Source: Cornus controversa (Eukaryota; Streptophyta; Magnoliopsida; Cornales; Cornaceae). Taken from it: a DNA stretch of 64,000 nt. Position numbers and translations under genes: made by a program. The stretch is taken from the NCBI GenBank assembly GCA_026545225.1, contig CM048854.1, positions 27,838,730 through 27,902,729 of the forward strand. Reading direction: 5' to 3'. How positions within the stretch are numbered: the first letter of the stretch is position 1; every line of letters begins with the position of its first letter. This document shows positions 14,315-51,271 of the stretch, piece after piece. The notes beneath the pieces were generated by a model, which saw nothing but the letters and a program-made list of their open reading frames with translations, did not search any database and was not told where the DNA came from.

Positions 14315-14803
14315 TAGGGGTGCACACGGTCCGGTTCTGTCCGATTTTGGTATTTTTGGAACCAAATTGTATGGTCTAGTTTCACTAAAAATAGAACCGA
14401 ATCGAACCAAACCATTATAATCAATGGAACAGAACCAAACCGTACGAAAAGAACTGGTTTGATTCGGTTCAGTTCCACAGTTCACCTTTAATATATATTA
14501 TAAATTATATAATATATATTATATATATATATTATAATATAAGAGTGTAAGACTAGAATATTACTATACTATTTACACTTACAACTTATTTATGTTAATT
14601 TATAATATTATAAATTATATAATATATTCTATATATAAACGGTTCGATTCGGTCATCAGGGACATGAAATCGAAACTAAGCCATTAATTCACGGTCCTAA
14701 TATTTTGGAATCGTGCCAAAATTGGATCGTAAAAAACTAGACCGAATTGTCTGATCTGATTCGGTTTGATTTTCCGGTTTGGACCAATTTTTGTGCACCC
14801 CTG
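14315..14803. mobile_element. hAT-type MITE (GGTTCGG family)
   Basis: The left end TAGGGGTGCACACGGTCCGG and right end TTTTTGTGCACCCCTG are inverted repeats of the same family as the 12-kb hAT element at 38919-50914, with subterminal CGGTTC/GAACCG motifs and an AT-rich centre. The flanking 8-mers (ATCACAAC and AGCACTGT) match poorly, so the target duplication has decayed or the end is off by a few bases. A deletion derivative likely once mobilised by that hAT group. Confidence 0.75.
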
Positions 14804-38490: not shown

Positions 38491-41400
38491 AGCATGTCGA
38501 TTAGCTATGTATTTGCTTGGAAAGTGAAGAATTTCGTCCTTCACTTAAACCTCCAGACCTTGGAGGGGCAACGAGACTCATTAGAGACGAAGGTGGCCTC
38601 ATGGAAGAAAATGAATCGGCCAGTTAATACACAGTTTTATGTGGCCGATTCCATTTTTTCTTGTGACAATTGTATGATAGATGGTCAAATCTTTTTGTTA
38701 TATTCATACTATATGAATATATAATAAAATAATTTAGGGGTTGAGAAAAGAATATTGAAAATAGAGAAGTGGGTACAAGAGCCAAGAGGTAGGAGTTCAA
38801 AAACTGTCTGTGAGTTGAAGAGTTCTTGAGAGAGAGAGAGAGTGTATTTGACTTGGGTTCCTATATCTTCTTATAGATGTTGAGGTTATTTTTATAATTT
38901 CTTATATAGGGTATTTTGTAGGGGTGTACAAAAATCCGTCCAAACCGGGAATCCAAACCGAACCGGACCGGACTGGACAATTCGGTCTGATTTTTTTGCA
39001 GTCCAGTTCGGTCACGGTTCCAATTTTATGGAACCATGTAATAACGGTCCGGTTACGGTTCCAGGTCCCTCAGGACCGGATCGAACCAAACCGAACCATT
39101 TACATAAATATAAATATATTATATATAATATTTAACTATTATACTTATATCATATTTATAGTATTATAATTATATTAAAGTCAAAATAACAAATATCAAT
39201 CATCCACTCTGATCTGTATCTAACGATTTCTTTTTGCAAAAACGCGTTGCTAGTCGCTAGGGTTCTGGACCTCTTCTGTTCCAAACTCTCTCCCCTGTTT
39301 TCAATTTTCTCTGGTTCTGATCTGTATCTAACGATTTGTTACTCTCTGTATCTTATGATTTCAGCTTCTCACTTCTCTCTTTGTATCTCACATCTCTCTG
39401 TATCTCACGATTTGGCTCTCTCTCTGTCGATCTCAAGAAGGCTCTCTCTATGTCGACTCAAGAAGGCACTTCCCCACTCATGCATAACTAACCACGGAGT
39501 CATCATCATCTTTCTCCGTTGAGGTAAGAACTAAATTAATTTATGGTCATCTGTTGTGAATATAGGATTTGTGAATTTTGAGTTCATTTGTTTTCATTTA
39601 TTCCTTAGATCTGTTAAATTTTTGGTCATTTTTTTAGAATTAGTTATTTTTATTGGTGGGCATTGTGTAAATTTGGGAATTTGGCTGATTAATTAGAGAT
39701 CTAGGGTTAGGATCTTGATATAAATTGGGAGTTTCGTTTGTTTTCTTCAATTGAGCTGGGTAAACATCAAATTTCATTGGGATCTGTTGTTTCATTCGGC
39801 GAAAAGTTTATTTTGAGGTATAAATCTGCCCTATCAGATAATTTTGGAAAACATTGATTTTTTATTTTTTTATTTTTAGTAATACAAATGCTAATTTCCT
39901 TATTAGATAATTAATGAAGCAATTTCTAGTTATACATGTATATGTACATTGTCTAAATGTGTATCAGATCAAGCATTGCATCCAGAATGATGGATTATTG
40001 TGTGTATTGTGAAAGTTATTAACAAAATTATTGGAAAGATTTGAATTATAGCTGTGTCGGAGATGGGAAAGAGTGAGAGATTGAGAGGCTTTATAGAAAG
40101 AGTGGGAGTTAGAACAGTGTTAGGTGAAGTGCATCCATTTTAATGGATTGATAGTGAAATATAAATTCACAAATTATATAGGGATTAGAAAGAAATATAT
40201 TGTTTGATAAAATTAAAAATTAAATATTAAAAATCTTAATGGCCGGAGTTTTAAATATTAATTATAAATTGAGATTTTTTTTAAATAATTTTTTGAACTT
40301 TAATGATAAGTGATCAGAATAAAGTGTTTGAATTGGTTATCAAACATCACCTTTGTCAATTTATCTCCTTTTTACTTTCTTCTTTTGTTTTTTATTTTTA
40401 TTTTTATTTTTTTCCCTACCAAATAGCCCATCAGAACGTGCAGGCAGGTCATGTGTTGGAGATTAGAGTGAGAGATTGAGAGGCTTTATAGAGAGAGTGG
40501 GAGTTAGAACAGTGTTAGGTGAAATGCATCCATTTTAATAGAAAACCAGTTAGCATCCTAATTTTAGTGGCAATAAAAATTGATAGTAGTCTGTTTCACA
40601 ATATAGATGTACATAACATTAAATTGAGATGCATTTCATAGTAGTCTGTTTCCTTAGGCCTCTAATGGATCCAATTTCATTATATTACTATTTGATTGTA
40701 TAAAAAATACAGAGCCAGAAAATTTTCAAGGTTTGGCACTCAACTCCTTCATGTTTTTTGAACAGATAACTTAAGTATCTCTCACCATGTAAATCTTTAT
40801 AAATTATTATCTTAATATAATCGAAAAATCATTTAAAATTTGTTGAATTTAATTTGATTGTCGTCAAATGCTTCAATTTCACATAATTCAAATCCTGAAC
40901 TTGTGAATTTTTTAGCATTTTTTTCTAATTTAGATTTCTTAGATAATTGATTATTTTATTGAACTGGCTTGAAATGGGTCCAAATTTAAAAAAACATCTC
41001 TGACTCTCACTATGAAAGGTGGCATTCACATTTTTCAATCTATGCAAAACATTTATTTTCATTTGTTTTTCTCTTTTTTATATATAAATAGAGTGAACAA
41101 AGAAAGTAGCAAGTTAGCAACTGACTATTTCTTTTTCTTTTTTTCTTTTTTTCCTGATGCTAGATGTCAAGTACTGGAGATGGAGATGCTAGTAATCTTA
41201 TTTATCTTCCGGAAAAATCCACTGAGGTAAAGGTACGTCAAGTTAATAAGAGAAAGCGATTTGATGTTTGGGATCATTTTATAGAAATTGAATCAAAAGA
41301 AGGAGGAGGTGCTAGATGTAAGTATTGTAATGCAACTTATGAATGGAAAGGTGGAAATGAGACTAGTACATTGAGAAAACATTCTATGAAGTGTCGAAAG

Positions 41401-43019
41401 AGTCCAAATCAAGATAATAAACAAACACTTTTATCCTTTCAATCTATAGTATAAGAAGCTGATGATAGTATTAGTTTGGGTGTTTGAAAATTTGACCATG
41501 ATCTTTGTAGGGAAGTATTTGAAAAAATGATTATCATGGATGAGTTGCTCTTCAATTTTGTAGAGTGTGAAGGTTTTCGTTATATTCTTAGTGTGTTGCA
41601 ACCTAGGTTCAAAATCATGTCACATAATACAATAGCGAGGGATTGCATGGTGTTATATGCTAGTGAGAAGAATAAGTTAAAGGACTCATTTCTTAAATCA
41701 AATCAAAGACTTTCCCTCACTACGGATTGTTGGACCTCACTCCAAAACCTTTCTTATATGTGCCTTACTGCCCACTTTATTGATAGTGATTGGAAATTGC
41801 ATAAAAGAATTCTAAATTTTTGTGTGATTTCTAGTCACAAAGGTGAGGCAATTGGTAAAGCAGTGGAGCAATGTTTGAATGATTGGAGTATAGATAAACT
41901 TTGCACACTTACTGTTGACAATGCAAGCTCAAATGATCTTGCTATTCATTATTTGAGGACAAAGACTATTCAAAAGAGTGACACTTTCATTTTAGGTGGT
42001 GAATTCTTTAACATGAGATGTTGTGCACATATTCTTAATTTAATTGTGAGAGATGGGTTAAGTGAATTGAAAGATTCAATAACTCAAATTCGTGGAGCTG
42101 TGAGGTACGTTAGGAGTTCTCTACAAAGAGAACAAATTTTCAAGCAATGTGCGGAGATGACAAAGACAACATCTAAAAGTTCTTTGTGTTTAGATGTCCA
42201 AACTAGGTGAAACTCTACATATCTCATGCTAAAAGCCGCATTAAAGTTTGAAAATGCATTTGGAAAAATGGAAGATGAAGACCCACATTCTGTCATAGAA
42301 CTTAAGTATGAGCCTCCTACCAATAGTGATTGGAATGATGCTCGGGTTTTCACAAATTTTTTGGAAAAATTTTATGATGCCACCACTCGCATGTCCGGTT
42401 CTTTATATGTTATTTCTAATATTTATTTTCATGAAGTGTGTAGCATTGAAAGGAACTTGTCCTTATGGTCAAAGAATTTGGATCCTCGTTTAAGTGCCAT
42501 GACTATCAAAATGAAGACCAAATTTAACAAGTATTGGGGTAACATTGAGAAAGTGAATATGATGTTAGTACTTGCCGTTGTGTTAGATCCTCGCTACAAG
42601 TTGAATTATGTAAGTTTTTGTTACTTTAAAGTTTATCCTCCTACCATGGTGAGTGATCTCATTAAAAAAGTAAGGGAAACATTGGATCGTATTTATAGTG
42701 AGTATCAAAATTTTGAGTCGGCACTACAAGAATTTTGGGTTTTAGCGACAACCAGAACCGTCGCTAAAATTCACAAAACCGTCGCTAAAAGTTGAATCCG
42801 TCTGTCACTAATACCTCCGTCGCAAAAGGTATTTAGCGACAATCAAAAGGTTACTGTCGCAAAATCTAGGGCACTTTGGCGACAATGAGTACCGTCTCCA
42901 ATATTGTCGTCGCTAAAAGGGATTAGCGACGATTTTTCCTGTCGCTAATAGTTCATAAAATTGCCACAGTTTTCTTCTGTCGCTAATGTGCAAGTCCGTC
43001 GCTAATACATTAAATTTTT

Positions 43020-44286
43020 TTATTTTTAATACTATAATTAATTTTTTATTATTTTTAGTTATGAAATTGGTTTTGCTCTGATTTATATATTTATTTATTT
43101 TCTATTTTTAGAAGTACATTTTTCTTAAAATAAAAAAATATTAATATCAATATCAAAAGTAATTTATATACATGACAAAATAGTATATCAAAATCACATA
43201 AATGAATGCACCATCATAAAATTTGGTACACCTAATATAGCAATTGATCGGTATCATATACATCCTATAACCATAATCATAAATGACAATACTAACCCAA
43301 TTTCTTTACATTTTTTGAGCCCTACAAAAGGAACTGGATTGAGAAATCTTGCCAATTTTTATGTTTACCATATACAAAATTCTAAAGAAAAAATTCAAAA
43401 AAAAATTTAAATGACAGACATTATATTTATCATGGTGGTGATGGTCCTGCGCTACTCTTGATACCGAGTTGGTTATGCACTATCTCCGCATCATTATGAT
43501 TAGACTTGTGATAGGCTTCTCCTTCACTTCATCCTGCAATTGAATTAAAACTCGAGTCTTAGAATTGAGATAGAAGTAAAATAGTCCATAAAAAAAGTTG
43601 AAAAATTAGTCCACTGAAAATCAAATCAATGCAGTTACAAAATTAGATGTCCAATTTTTGTTTTCATGTTATATCTAATCAAGAACAATGACAACACTAG
43701 TAAAGAGCCATAAGGCTCTGATTAAAGGCAACGTAAGTTAAAGGAGAGGTCAAATAGGGCATGGGTAATGATGAAACATATAGAACACAAGTTGTTAGGA
43801 ATCATGGCCCTTTTGGTGTGACAAAATCCAAGTAAATTCAAATACATGAGCTAACACTGAGTTGTTAGAATGACAATGTATTTAAGTTTCATACATGCAC
43901 TTCAACTGGAAACTCGTCTTTAAGCAACATTTAATATATTTGGTACTCTTAGTATATAAATATTTTCCAGATTCATCTCCCTCACCCAATCATTAAGGGA
44001 AAATGATAAAAATAATGCCCAAATATTACAAATTTTCTAAAACGCAAAAATCTATCATGCTCAAGCCAAATGTTCTTAAAAACAAGAAAGAAAGAATAAA
44101 GAGAATGAAGAGGGTCTGTTGGTGAGTGAAAAGAAATAAAAGAATAATGAAGTGATGAGTGGGAAATGAGAGATGTCCCGGGGAAGGAAGAAAAGAAAGA
44201 AAAAGAGAGAGTGGGTGAAGAGAGAGTGTGTGTGCGTGTCTATATATATAAAGGAAAAGAGAGTGGGTGAAGACAGAGTGTGTGTG

Positions 44287-44319
<33 letters not shown>

Positions 44320-46930
44320 TGGAACAGCGTTCACCACCACCTTCAAAATTAGCCGCATGCACCCACACTCACCTCCACCAGTAACCACCAAAACCCACTT
44401 CGACAGCAAACTATCACCTACCAAAGCCGAACCAGCTACCTCACCATGGCTCAACACTATCCCACTTCCTTCACTCACGGCCAGTCATCACCACAACCCA
44501 CTTTCACACCTCAACCAAAACCAACAACCTCTCACCTACCTCACTTGCCCAACATCAGCTAATCACTCATCAAACACCAAAAAAAATTACTACTAACAAT
44601 CTGTACTTACGAAAAAAAAAATACTATTAACAATCTGTAAATTTGCAAGTCCAAGCCACTCAAAATTGGCATGTTCCATACGAAATGGGTAATCATGTTA
44701 TTCTTTTGCTTTTTTACTTTTCAGTTCCTTTGATGCTTTTACAAAGCTTCTTCACCTTCAGATTCAAGATTTAATATTCTTTTATCTACACAACTCTCAC
44801 CTTTTTCTTTTTCAGAAAGTTACTTAAAAATATGTATTAGAACCATAGGAAACATCTTTTCTTTTTCAGTAATAGCATCTAACAAAATTACTGTCTGTAC
44901 TTCCAGCTCTTTTAGCCTTCTCCTTTCATGTAGAAATTCAATTCTCACCTAACAAAACAACAAAGATAGTCCAAGCAATGCCATTTATGAAAACAGAAGG
45001 TACAAAGAACAGTTTATATGGGCAAGGATTCCAGCACCCAAACAGATAATGCCATTTAACAAAATGGGACAAAACATAATCTAGTGTAGATACACCCAGC
45101 TTCTAAACTCTCCACTAAAAATGTAAAGGAACCTCAGAATATAACAACAAAAGAATTGAACAAAACAGAGGGCAACTGGTAGGCCTAAGCAGCTAACTTA
45201 TTTTTTTTCCTAAGCAAGAATTTATTAACAAACAAACAAAAATATGAACAACAGAGGAGCAAACCTCTCTAAAAAATAAAGACTAGGCTTACTAAAAAGG
45301 CCCATTTCCATAAATTGGCTAACAAAAACAGAGGCCAAATCAGCTAACTTAATCAGCATACTCTCTCATCGGTATGACACTAACAAGTGTTCTTTGGAGC
45401 CTTCTCTAGATGCAAATTTAGAGGAGATCAATTCTTTGTCTGTTAAAGATGTTTTCTTAATAAAAGCCAATGATGTGGATATGTTTGGAAATATAAATCA
45501 GTAGAATTTAGAAGGAAGGATATCAGATATCTTCTAATGAGGAAGTTATTATGAAGGAAAATAGATAACAATCTAGAATTGACTATTGAGGGTATTCCAT
45601 TATCGGTCTCTCTGGGAAGAGCAACAAAACAGAGGAAATGATTGACCAAATATCCTTATAAACGGTCCTCCAGATTGGGAGTTTGTAAGTCTGAGTTTAC
45701 CTTTGATGATTGCTAGCATGATATTTCAGTAGTTAACCTGAATTAATCAAACGATGCTTATTTATATTTTATGTTTTTGGTGCAACCACATAACCGGCAT
45801 GTAACATCAAAGATTGGGCTCACAAAGTCCATTGCTAGCTCTCAATAGCCTAATTAATTAAGCACATACAATTACAAGACTTTAGTAAATGGGAGAATAA
45901 ATTAATACTGGAAAGCAAAGAAAAGATGCAATCTAGCCAGAGAAGCAAATATAATTTACAAGCATATGAGCTACTTAATTGTTATGTAAAAAATTCTCAA
46001 GGCTATGAACAATCTTTACTAATTGGAAGACCAGACTACTACATTTACTAGGAGGATCCATCCTGTCTCGTAATATATCCACAAGGATACATTCTATTCT
46101 ATTCTATCTGGCTTGCTACACTGAAAAAATTATTTGACATCCCCTACCCCTCACTCCCTCCCTCCCTATTTTAATTATGTATAGAGGAACACATTAGGTG
46201 GTAATGAATCAAGGATTGTAACTAGACCAGAAATGAAAACAACAACAAATACAAACAAAAGTTACTCACTGATGTAAAGAGGAACAAATTAAGCATTGAA
46301 TCAATCATGTAAAAAACAAAAAATCAACACATTAAGATGCAATCAAATATAAGTTTTCAAAAGAAAATTAATGAAAGCAACAGATTAACTTAAAAAAGAA
46401 TAAGAAAGAACATATTAATTACTAGTAGTAGCACCAACAGTGAATAATAAGTTAAACAAACATATATATTTTTTAGTTTGGTCCCCCAATGTGGAGTGCT
46501 GGAAGGAGTAGACAGGCTAACCTTTTGCCATTATTTGCACAATGTCGCAGAGAAACAAACCTGCTTTGTCAAACTTGGTAGCCCCAGCAATTTACTATTG
46601 CAAAGCAATGGTTCCCAACTCAAATCAATGAACTGAAGATAGAAATTGGAAAGTAGAATAATGTCTAGGAAGTAATAAGTTTATTTTTATTTTTTAACTC
46701 AACACACACACCCACTGTGCCCTATAGGGAACGTGAACCTCAACCTCCCATACAAAAAGATAAAGACATAACATTTGAGCTAAAGGCTCAATGGTTAATA
46801 AATATTCTTACTCAAGCGAAATGTAAAAGCAAAAAGTCATTTTAGATGCTCAGACAATGTAATGATCTCATTTTCAAATTTTATGAAGAACAATTTCCAG
46901 CAGTATCAGAAGGCCTCAGCAATGAAAAGA
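43020..46930. other. Interior of CACTA element, unassigned
   Basis: About 3.9 kb without supported genes. A (TG)n(TA)n microsatellite lies at 44279-44320, followed by a Pro/Thr/His-rich plus-strand frame (44320-44590) of low complexity. Further parts of the captured MED7 gene may be hidden here, since the exon after 46938 has a usable donor, but I could not recognise them. Confidence 0.35.
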
Positions 46931-46937
46931 ACTATAC

Positions 46938-47270
46938 CTCTTAATATCCTCCACGGCTTGTTTACGGCACTGTATCTGAAGTTCTAGTATGTGGATCAGT
47001 GTTGCTCGGGCCTGGGAAAAGGAAGCAGAGAAAAAGGAAGGAAGAAAGAAGAGAAAATAAACTACATAAATAAGGATGTTAATATTACTCAAGAAATTCA
47101 CACCTGATGAGGCCGCAATGAATTTAGAAGGTGATGTATGTTCTTGAAAATAAGGGATATGTCTTCCACTCTTCTTGCATATTATGATGGTTGCTCTACA
47201 AGAACATCAGCAAGCTCCAAAAAATGAAGCTGCAATTCTCTGTTAAGTGACCTCAGTTCATTCTTGAAAT
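46938..47270 (-). pseudogene. Captured MED7 (Mediator subunit 7) exons
   Basis: Minus strand: exon 47270-47104 encodes FKNELRSLNRELQLHFLELA, then DVLVEQPS, a stop, and YARRVEDISLIFKNIHHLLN, SLRPHQ. Exon 47011-46938 continues ARATLIHILELQIQCRKQAV, EDIKR. This is the central and C-terminal part of plant MED7, a subunit of the Mediator middle module. The intron between has GT and AG ends, and both outer boundaries also look like splice sites (CTCCCAG before, GTATAG after), so capture was from genomic DNA. The TAA at 47184-47182 replaces a Gln codon. The N-terminal MED7 exons are not recognised. It cannot give a full MED7; antisense or small RNA is possible. Confidence 0.9.
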
Positions 47271-49154
47271 CTGGGAGAAATTATAATGTTATTAGACATC
47301 ATTATGATTTATAATATATATCAATTCATTTTATAAGGATCGGGATTGCAAAGAGAACACATAAAATTTGACTAGCTAGAACTTTATTGACCTTTTAGAC
47401 CACTTAAAATGACCTAGAACATGATTGGACCTATAATAAGACCATGGGCCACTACTAGAAACCATGATTCAAAGATTAAGAAACTAACAAAATACTGACA
47501 CAAGAAAAATTGATGGGAGGATAAGTTAATTAATATAAAGTGTTCAACAGACCAAATAAATATTACTAGTCAATATGAAACATTCAAAACATGATATCAA
47601 ACTGCAATGAGGTAGAATCAAATTAGCTAGAAGTCATTGTTTTTGAAGCAGGTGAATCATACCCTGATGTTCTTGATATTGCAATAAAAGCACAAAATCT
47701 GTCCATTTTTTTGGTAAACAATCTGTCTAATTGATACACAATCATTCCAAAAATGTAATATAATAACCACAATGAGTGATTAGAATCATCTGTTGAACCC
47801 TTTGTCTCATTGGATTGATCTAACCAACATTACAATTCTTCACTTGATCAATAAATTCATTTCATAATGACAAACAAGTATTGAATTTCAGACAACTAGT
47901 AATTAAAATAACCAATTCAAGTAAGAGAAGGGTCAGAAGAACGTATGGAAACAATTTGAGGAGCTATGCTGTATTAAGAACTACATTGTTACAAGAAAAA
48001 CAACACCAAAGGCAACACTTCCTTCAACTAGTCAAGTAACTAAAAAGTTCCCTTTCTTCATTTTAATCACCTTATACTATTACTCTCATGGGTCGCTACA
48101 GATTCTTCAAGCTATATAATGTCAATCATTACTTAAGAAAATATATATACAAGTACCAAATTTTGCATCACTACTCAATTTTGCATCAAAGAGAAACTAA
48201 TAAAACCTTCCAATCTCCCCTAAATGCAATCAACTACATTACAAAAACAAACAGATAGATAATTTGATATCTAAAAAAAAGATAAAAGCAAAAAAGATTA
48301 AAGTCTACCTTCTCAGTGTGTCCCGGCTACAGTCCTACAACAAACCGCATCCGTCAGGCCAAAGCAAACAGGGGCCTTCCCTTGTGATCTCGCATACCCC
48401 GCCATATCAAATTGATTGCAAAATCAACAGATCTAAGAGAACATAACACGTGAAATCAACCACAAAAATAGCTAATGCGTCAAGAAAGGAAAAAAAAATT
48501 AAGAATCAAATATAAGAGAAAATCCATTCAGATAAAATATCAAGCAACATATCAGCAAGCAATTTTACATCCGCAACTAGCCTCAGTTTTGCAAAATTCT
48601 TTTTCCCCCTTCTTTGAAAAAAGGTAATCTATGATGCACATGGTCTGTTTTCAACTATACAATAATTGTTAGGAAACTACCAAATCATTAATCCATCAAT
48701 TGATCGAACTAATGGTTTCGAAAGCTAACTCATGTTATAAAAATATTTTTGTGCTTAGGTTGTTTTCAGAAATCAAGTGTCTTATGGAAAAAAGTTCAAA
48801 AATCAAGTGTCTTACCGGAGACAAATCTGTGTAGCTTTCACCGAGAAGAATCAAACAACCATGTATTGCTATCACCGGGGAGGTCGATTGTAACTACAGA
48901 TAGAAAGAGAATTGCTTTCATCAGAGAGGACTGGTTGATTGAGTGTATTTAGAGAGAGAGAGAGAGAGTGTTATAAACAAATATAGTCGTGCATATATAT
49001 ATATATAAATATAGAAACACACAAATATATATATATATATATTGTAGACTTGCCTGAAGATATTTTTGTCTCAGAGAAAGGGATATGATCAATCAACACG
49101 GAAACACCAAAAGGAAAAGGGCACGAGATCGAGAATAGATTTTGGACGATCGAT

Positions 49155-49320
49155 CTAGCAGATGAGAGAGAGAGAGGGAAGATTGTGTGTGTGTGAGAGA
49201 GAGAAATCGCTCATGAGAGTGAAATGGTGAGATGAGACATAGCAGATGAGAGAGAGAGGGAAGATCGTGTGCGTGTGCAAGAGAGAAATCGCTAGTGAGA
49301 GTGAAATGGTGAGATAAGAC
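49155..49320. repeat. Tandem duplication of about 80 bp in the CACTA right half
   Basis: Two units starting AGCAGATGAGAGAGAGAG and containing GAGAGAAATCGCT and GAGTGAAATGGTGAGAT. The GA-rich character suggests origin from a gene leader, perhaps that of the captured gene. Confidence 0.75.
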
Positions 49321-51271
49321 TGTGTATGTAACTTTCCCAATTTTACATAGGTATAGCTTTTTCTGTGTATTGGGTATAACACGTAGGAACCACCAACAAG
49401 TGAAAAAAAAATTTGGTGGCAATTTTCGCGCGTCAATTTTTTTTGGCGCATCAAATATTTTGGTGGAAAATATTGAACCTTTAGGGACAGTTGTTTTTAA
49501 CTGTCCCTAAAACTCACACTTTTAGGGACAGCCAAATATCACTGTCTCTAAAAATGGCACATTTCGGGACAGTTTTTAGACTGTCTCTAAAAGCCCGTCC
49601 CTAAAGCCCAGAATTCTTGTAGTGCGGACACTTCATCTTCAACTCAAACTTGTAATGTCATGGAGGTTGATCAACCAAGTAGTGAAAGTATTGATTTAAA
49701 AGATATCCAATTGGAGTATTTACAACATTTGGAACAAGTATGAAGTGGGGGAAATAAATCAGAAGTGGAGAGATATTTAGATGAAGCTTGTGCAAAGCAT
49801 GATAACTTTGACATCTTGAGTTGGTGGAAGGTAAATAGTTCAAGGTATGAGGTTCTTTCCAAAGTTGTACGTGACATTTTAACTATTCCTGTTTTCACAG
49901 TTGCTTCTGAGTCGGCTTTTAGTACAGGAGGTCATGTTCTTGGCCCATTTCGTAGTTCTCTTACTCCTAAGATTGTGGAGTGCTTGATTTGTGCACAAGA
50001 TTGGTATCATGCCTCACCACTCCCGATTCAAGTTGAAGCAAAAGCCGATAAAATTGAAGCAATTAAATCAGGTGATTTTCATTTTATCATATAATTTACT
50101 TGTAAGTATTTGTTAATTGTTAACTATTTTTTTTATAAGTATATTTGTTAATTGTTAACTTAAATAAAATTATTTACTTTTGCAGCCATGAGTTGCTTAA
50201 CTACTGCATGATGACGTTTGAGATTGAGTTCGGATAGAAACATGTCAGAGTTGATGGTAAATCATTTTATTGTTGATAGACGTTTAGTAATTTTTTATAT
50301 ACATTTAACTAGAATTTAGTAATTAACTAAATGCATTTCATTTTTCAGTGGACTTCTATTTTCTCATTGATGCTGATCAAAGAATTTTCGGAGGCTTGGA
50401 GCTTGGAAATTGTTGTCTTTGTTGTTTGAATCTAATTATGAATTTGTATTGTATTGAGATTTTAATTACTTTGAATTTGTGTAACTTTTGGAAGTTTAGT
50501 TTTTGCTTGGGATTTCAATTTGTATTATGTTTGAAGTTTGTTTGATGTTAGATATTATGCTTCTACTGGTTGGATTATTATGTTATTACTGTTTCTTGAA
50601 TTAGTTTTTATTAGTTCATTAAAGAAATTATATCATGATTTAATTAGGTTGACATTTGATGAATCTTAGTTTTAAAAGATTTAAAATTGATGCTTGAAAT
50701 TGATTTGCAGTAGGCTTGAAATTGAAGTTTAAAACAGGTTGTTACAAGTTGGTGAACCGTGGAACCAAACCGGACCAAACTGGTTCTTCACGGTTCGGTT
50801 CCGTCCGGTTCCATACGGTTAAACGGTTCGGTTCCATTTTTAATGAAACCGGACCAAACGGTTTGGCTCCAAAAATGGCCAGAACCGAACCGATCCGGAC
50901 CGTGTGCACCTCTAGTATTTTGGTCATCAAATGAGTGTTTGTGTTTTGGGTGGGTGGGGGCATTTTGGTAAATAATTTGATGGAAGATGATGGGGTAATT
51001 GGATAAATAAAAAGTGCATAGGCAACATCACACTTAACCATTACCTTCCAAAAAGAACCTCTCAATTAAAAAAGAAAACACTGGAGAAATAATGAAACAA
51101 ATCAATATGTGTACATATATAGAGAGGGAGTAATTTAACTCCCCTTTTTTCATTATCCACACAAATTCCATCAAACCAATTAAAAATAAATAAAACACTA
51201 GAAAAATAATGAAACAAATGAATGTGTGAAGAAATAGAGAGTAATTGAACTCCCCTTTCTGCATTCTCCAA

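Follow-up and report, generated by a model that had tools for sequence, protein, structure and literature searches.

The window, a 64,000-nucleotide stretch of Cornus controversa DNA (C10:27838730-27902729 of a genome totalling 771.7 Mb), holds a hAT element whose transposase gene is interrupted by a CACTA element, and that CACTA element carries pieces of several host genes, among them a fragment of MED7 (Table 1).

Table 1. Features of the host hAT element and of the CACTA element nested in it, in window coordinates.
Feature	Position	Strand	Basis or match
Host hAT element	38919..50914	+	8-bp target duplication GTATTTTG at 38911-38918 and 50915-50922; domains
hAT transposase reading frame, 5' part, three in-frame stops	41164..42721	+	Reading frame, domains
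Target duplication CGG, left copy	42719..42721		Ends read
Non-autonomous CACTA (Pack-CACTA) element, 6,903 bp	42722..49624	- (strand of the family transposase)	Ends, target duplication, copies
Left (transposase 3') end region with TAGCGAC subterminal repeats	42722..44895		Repeats, copy comparison
Captured 3' end of SWEET sugar-transporter gene	44899..45423	-	C3:56.745 Mb, 94.5%
Stretch common to related CACTA L052	45413..46009		Sequence match, 93%
Captured DUF952-like gene-region piece	46008..46462	-	C6:66.488 Mb, 92%; C4:9.419 Mb, 94%
Captured MED7 piece, 838 bp	46475..47312	-	PF05983, alignment to C4 gene
Gln-to-stop, CAA to TAA	47182..47184	-	Common to C10, C1 and C2 copies; absent in C5
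Segment common to another CACTA-like type (L030-L032)	47310..48528	-	Sequence match, about 92%
Right (transposase 5') end region with TAGGGAC subterminal repeats	48519..49624		Repeats, copy comparison
Target duplication CGG, right copy	49625..49627		Ends read
hAT transposase frame resumed, with Dimer_Tnp_hAT, one more in-frame stop	49628..50094	+	Reading frame, domains

The CACTA element, its hAT host and its relatives

The outer element is identified as a hAT element by its transposase domains and its 8-bp target duplication. Its domains are split by the insertion, with zf-BED and hAT-like_RNase-H to the left and Dimer_Tnp_hAT to the right; Pfam assigned no family to the stretch 41488-42207. 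Four stops interrupt the frame, three to the left of the inserted element and one to its right, and the gene had therefore probably decayed into a pseudogene before the CACTA element arrived. We joined the two flanks into a 400-base query, which gave 41 match rows with 40 of 88 candidates scored. Thirty-eight of these rows cross the join uninterrupted elsewhere in the genome, at 69-98% identity, and are empty sites; of the remaining rows, two are the window's own halves and one spans just 39 bases. The nesting that had been proposed in the preliminary description, with the frame resuming just past CGG, is thus borne out by split domains and empty sites alike. Two further traces of hAT elements were seen. 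A hAT-type terminus, TAGGGGTGCACACGGTCCGG, lies at window position 14315 and resembles the ends of the host element. At C4:29.71-29.99 Mb there are seven hAT matches among which a spacing of about 137.7 kb recurs, which suggests a tandem segmental duplication carrying hAT copies.

The inner element starts with CACTACAAGAA at 42722 and finishes with TTCTTGTAGTG at 49624, limits that had been placed correctly to the base together with the CGG duplication. Inverted CACTA...TAGTG ends, a 3-bp target duplication and subterminal repeats near both termini make it a CACTA (En/Spm) element. Note that the subterminal repeats differ by end, TAGCGAC at 42722-43010 and TAGGGAC at 49470-49624, and that transposase-bearing relatives have a similar left/right difference in the ends read so far.

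Copies with the same two end positions lie on C1 (7,302 bp, duplication TAT/TAT), on C2 (8,088 bp, ATC/ATC) and twice on C7 (6,238 bp, GAT/GAT). MED7 sequence is present in the C1 and C2 copies, in C1 as a part only, and absent from both C7 copies. Querying the genome with the left end yielded 46 matches (40 of 132 candidates scored), and the family is therefore larger than these. The two C7 stretches (7,863 bases each) differ by 1 base and thus appear to be duplicates of a single insertion, 52 kb from each other; the same insertion in the same flanks at C7:13.226-13.234 and 13.278-13.286 Mb marks a very recent segmental duplication.

Every copy has deletions of its own. The window element lacks 1.85 kb that C1 has at 44895/44899, and the C7 copies lack 45371-47612. 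A deletion of 43630-43901 is common to the C7 copies and C1. We considered whether the C7 copies preserve the state before MED7 was captured, and rejected this because C1, which shares that deletion, has MED7 sequence. For the same reason the simplest reading is that the C7 copies lost MED7 after having had it.

Transposase-encoding relatives have the same ends. In a Transposase_21 profile search with 150 of 492 candidates scored, six places fall inside family members. Five lie between left- and right-end matches (C5:40.45, C7:18.84, C7:12.47, C8:15.77 and C3:17.30 Mb). The sixth, C2:31.33 Mb, has a left-end match on one side and on the other a match to the inner part of the right side; in the sequence read there, only the left end was found. 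In three elements both termini were read, with equal duplications (C5, AGA/AGA; C7:18.84 Mb, ACC; C8, TTC). The frame scanned with Pfam, from the 21.9-kb C5 element (C5:40440292-40462236), is a stop-free tnp2-type transposase of 783 aa with Transposase_21, DUF4218 and Transpos_assoc. Tblastn with this 783-aa transposase (L053; E up to 1) gave no match in the window, C1 and C2 elements and one chance-level match of 14 residues in the C7 copies. Counting against the picture of transposase-bearing partners, five other pairs of family ends (C1:3.69, C7:23.95, C10:13.82, C2:88.59 and C2:65.2 Mb) enclose none of the transposase places in the scored set (150 of 492 candidates). All six transposases read inwards from the window-type right end, which is therefore the 5' end of the family.

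The captured MED7 fragment

The MED7 profile PF05983 (all 13 candidates scored) found six places over its cut-off. Two are genes, on C4 and C9; the fragments lie in the window (C10) and on C1, C2 and C5. This is a warning for annotation, as four of these six loci are transposon-borne fragments. Both genes have open exons from start codon to stop. In the window, the match at 47101-47271 scores 66 bits and covers profile positions 99-156 of 189 only, as befits a fragment. Chance likeness to MED7 was rejected on this score and on the alignment of the intron. A PDB search with the 25 residues of exon 4 gave no useful result.

On the minus strand, the piece comprises 42 bp of intron 2, exon 3 (47270-47104), intron 3 (47103-47012), exon 4 (47011-46938) and part of intron 4. 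The two adjacent exons described earlier are hence present with their intron and intact splice sites, in a piece that proved larger than first described, reaching 838 bp with its parts of introns 2 and 4. Against the C4 gene it matches over its full length, introns included, with 34 differences in 838 aligned bases (4.1%); against C9 there are 67 in 799 (8.4%). Because of that full-length match and these identities, the alignment points to the C4 gene, or a recent ancestor of it, as the parent. Intron 3, on whose match to a parental intron the preliminary description had staked the assignment and whose limits it had placed correctly, aligns with that of C4 apart from one 30-bp deletion. The deletion is common to the window, C1 and C2 and is the main difference among intron lengths of 92 bp in the window, 96 bp in C1 and C2, 122 bp in C4 and 126 bp in C5; GT..AG is kept in the window. 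The MED7 part of C1 begins at 46792, the rest being gone.

Both genes (L019/L020 on C4, L023/L024 on C9) carry partial duplicates of exon 3 within intron 2, with frameshifts or stops, once in C4 and twice in C9; these probably predate the split of the two genes. A possible match between the edge of the C4 duplication and the capture boundary at 47312 was considered and dropped, as the gene's duplication extends a few bases beyond that point.

The exons are decaying. The Gln-to-stop change noted from the outset is indeed the single stop in the window's MED7 exons, and the C5 fragment, which lacks it, has another stop. Exon 3 has lost its acceptor in C2. Over the two exons, silent and replacing codon changes relative to C4 number 2 and 4 in the window, 1 and 5 in C1, 2 and 4 in C2, and 3 and 5 in C5 (plus one gapped codon), against 9 and 2 in the paralogue C9. 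These counts, though small, show fragment exons that appear to be under no constraint. With two of five exons, a stop and replacement-heavy changes, the window piece is not a complete, constrained MED7 gene, and its exons look like neutral passengers.

Could the captured exons nevertheless influence the MED7 genes, as a source of small RNA or antisense RNA or as spliced-in cassette exons? Long stretches remain identical to the C4 gene (433 of 818 21-mers, and 126 of 203 exonic ones), an identity that would allow small-RNA effects. The window's splice sites are intact, and soybean Tgm-Express1 is reported to give spliced chimaeric transcripts. We nonetheless regard such action as highly improbable, given the stop in three copies, the replacement-heavy changes, the lost acceptor in C2, the loss of MED7 from the C7 copies and the orientation of the exons. 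Relative to the family transposase, which reads inwards from the window-type right end, the MED7 exons lie in sense. Transcripts started by the element itself would therefore carry MED7 in sense, and the suggestion that the element could feed antisense RNA against MED7 finds no support in this direction. Read-through from the hAT side would be antisense.

A mosaic interior and the MED7 joint

The element holds several pieces of host origin, MED7 among them, and belongs to a family with other copies; the capture itself was described correctly, its singleness was not. The SWEET piece consists of the last codons (SREGSKEHLLVSYR before the stop, against SREGSREPLLVSYR in the parent, which has PF03083), the stop and downstream sequence, of which 1.7 kb is kept in C1. 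Within the next stretch, 45756-46009 also occurs in a transposase-bearing relative (L053), at 94%, between its right end and its transposase. The name DUF952-like is tentative, with a Pfam score of 22.8, just below the cut-off of 23.7. The C4 copy of the C6 DUF952-like region is partial, and either could be the source of 46008-46462. The elements that share 47310-48528 (L030-L032) each show one end, or a near form of one, and are CACTA-like by these ends. Inside this segment, 47976-48466 resembles, at 82%, the presumed intron 1 that follows exon 1 of gene L036. That gene is called G-beta-like for its N-terminus, which matches a wheat chain annotated as G protein beta subunit/RACK1 (E 0.0004), and a G-beta-like intron is probably among the cargo. 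The C1, C2 and C7 copies carry a further coding piece, which we take to be SEC16-like, with a host-like locus at C2:91680761-91680919 (91%); Pfam assigned it no family.

Host gene pieces inside and no transposase make this a Pack-CACTA element, with an interior that reads as a mosaic of such pieces. All five pieces with an assigned gene direction (MED7, SWEET, DUF952-like, G-beta-like and, outside the window copy, SEC16-like) run along the transposase direction (two-sided chance 0.06), which is a hint only.

A fragmentary relative at C5:30.05 Mb bears on how MED7 entered. Its left end has two changed bases (TGCTACAAGAA), its left part is about 83% like the family, and no right end was recognised there, so that the locus is an incomplete element. 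MED7 sequence spans 965 bp there and extends further into intron 2 than in the window. On both sides of it lies DUF952-like sequence, collinear, with 37 bp missing between. At the left joint, AGTTT is common to the MED7 and DUF952 sources and is preceded by an AT-rich stretch absent from the DUF952 source; a few extra bases stand at the right joint. The left joint and its AT-rich filler are shared by C5, the window and C2, and in the window and C2 the right side stops at 47312. Independent captures in C5 and the window were rejected on this shared joint. To judge from its sequence, the C5 joint looks like what a break would leave if it had been mended with a copy of part of another gene.

The C5 locus is an older relative of the MED7-carrying copies. 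Over 798 ungapped columns of the MED7 block, polarised changes number 11 for C4, 46 for C9, 33 for C5 and 8 for window plus C2, with 2 common to the window, C2 and C5, 14 columns in which the window and C2 differ, and 9 of other patterns. As only two changes are common to all three, their kinship is argued chiefly from the joint they share. In C5 the SEC16-like piece is found to the right of MED7, in C1 to the left, and this differing order counts against a simple line of descent.

We consider it very probable that the window element is a decaying Pack-CACTA capture mobilised in trans. Full-length relatives with the same ends and a tnp2-type transposase would move it, and copies with distinct target duplications point to transposition in trans. 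The mosaic would have been gained stepwise. MED7 was most likely copied in as a patch, during repair of a break inside an already captured DUF952-like fragment, by ectopic copying with microhomology; it may then have been trimmed and spread by transposition, until one copy inserted into a member of a many-copy hAT type. The nearest named route for such a patch would be the abortive gap repair of Rubin and Levy, as cited in PMC8978399. As to where the repair took place, we lean slightly towards the element itself over a host locus.

The alternative in which MED7 first entered a DUF952-like host gene or pseudogene, and a CACTA element later took the ready-made chimaera whole, is compatible with the C5 structure, and L049 is a second, partial copy of the DUF952 region. 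We find it rather doubtful, as the six loci with MED7 DNA are the two genes, three complete CACTA elements and the eroded C5 copy, and no DUF952/MED7 chimaera was found outside the family with all first-look candidates scored. A different route has been proposed for Arabidopsis and other plants (PMC13317346 and PMC8903248): two close insertions, with aberrant excision joining the outer ends and taking the DNA between them. Exchange between elements does seem to occur, as 47310-48528 is also found in another CACTA-like type. For MED7 this route is unlikely, because the C5 piece is bounded by sequence of the DUF952 region with 37 bp missing, not by element ends.

The patch reading can be widened, tentatively, to a possible general one: CACTA elements might gain host genes by patch repair, with pieces in the transposase direction favoured, giving a sense exon chain that one promoter could transcribe and splice. 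If true, capture would have two routes, patch repair and that of the tandem-insertion model.

Comparison with known capture systems

The way in which host genes come to lie in DNA transposons remains under debate. In this case a single assembly holds the parental genes, an older C5 relative, three later copies with MED7 sequence, two copies that lost it and transposase-bearing relatives; because all of these are in one assembly, the order of events can be read from the joints. To our knowledge, any gene can be cargo of a CACTA element. Capture of MED7 by one was not found in the literature searched.

The kind of element is already known. As described in the published accounts, the Pack-CACTA (Pack-TYPE) elements of Arabidopsis, rice and maize likewise have no transposase, CACTACAA ends, target duplications and pieces from multiple loci; in contrast to a neighbour join, the C5 MED7 joint looks like a repair patch within a captured fragment. 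The soybean CACTA element Tgm-Express1 also carries several unrelated host gene fragments that keep their introns and is also inserted in a gene. It lies in an intron of an expressed gene and is spliced, whereas the window element lies in a hAT pseudogene. The Jozin elements of Chenopodium share the capture of host gene fragments, placed there upstream of the transposase frame; they keep their transposase, whereas the window element has none. Beside these systems, the MED7 cargo and the DUF952/MED7 joint are the new details.
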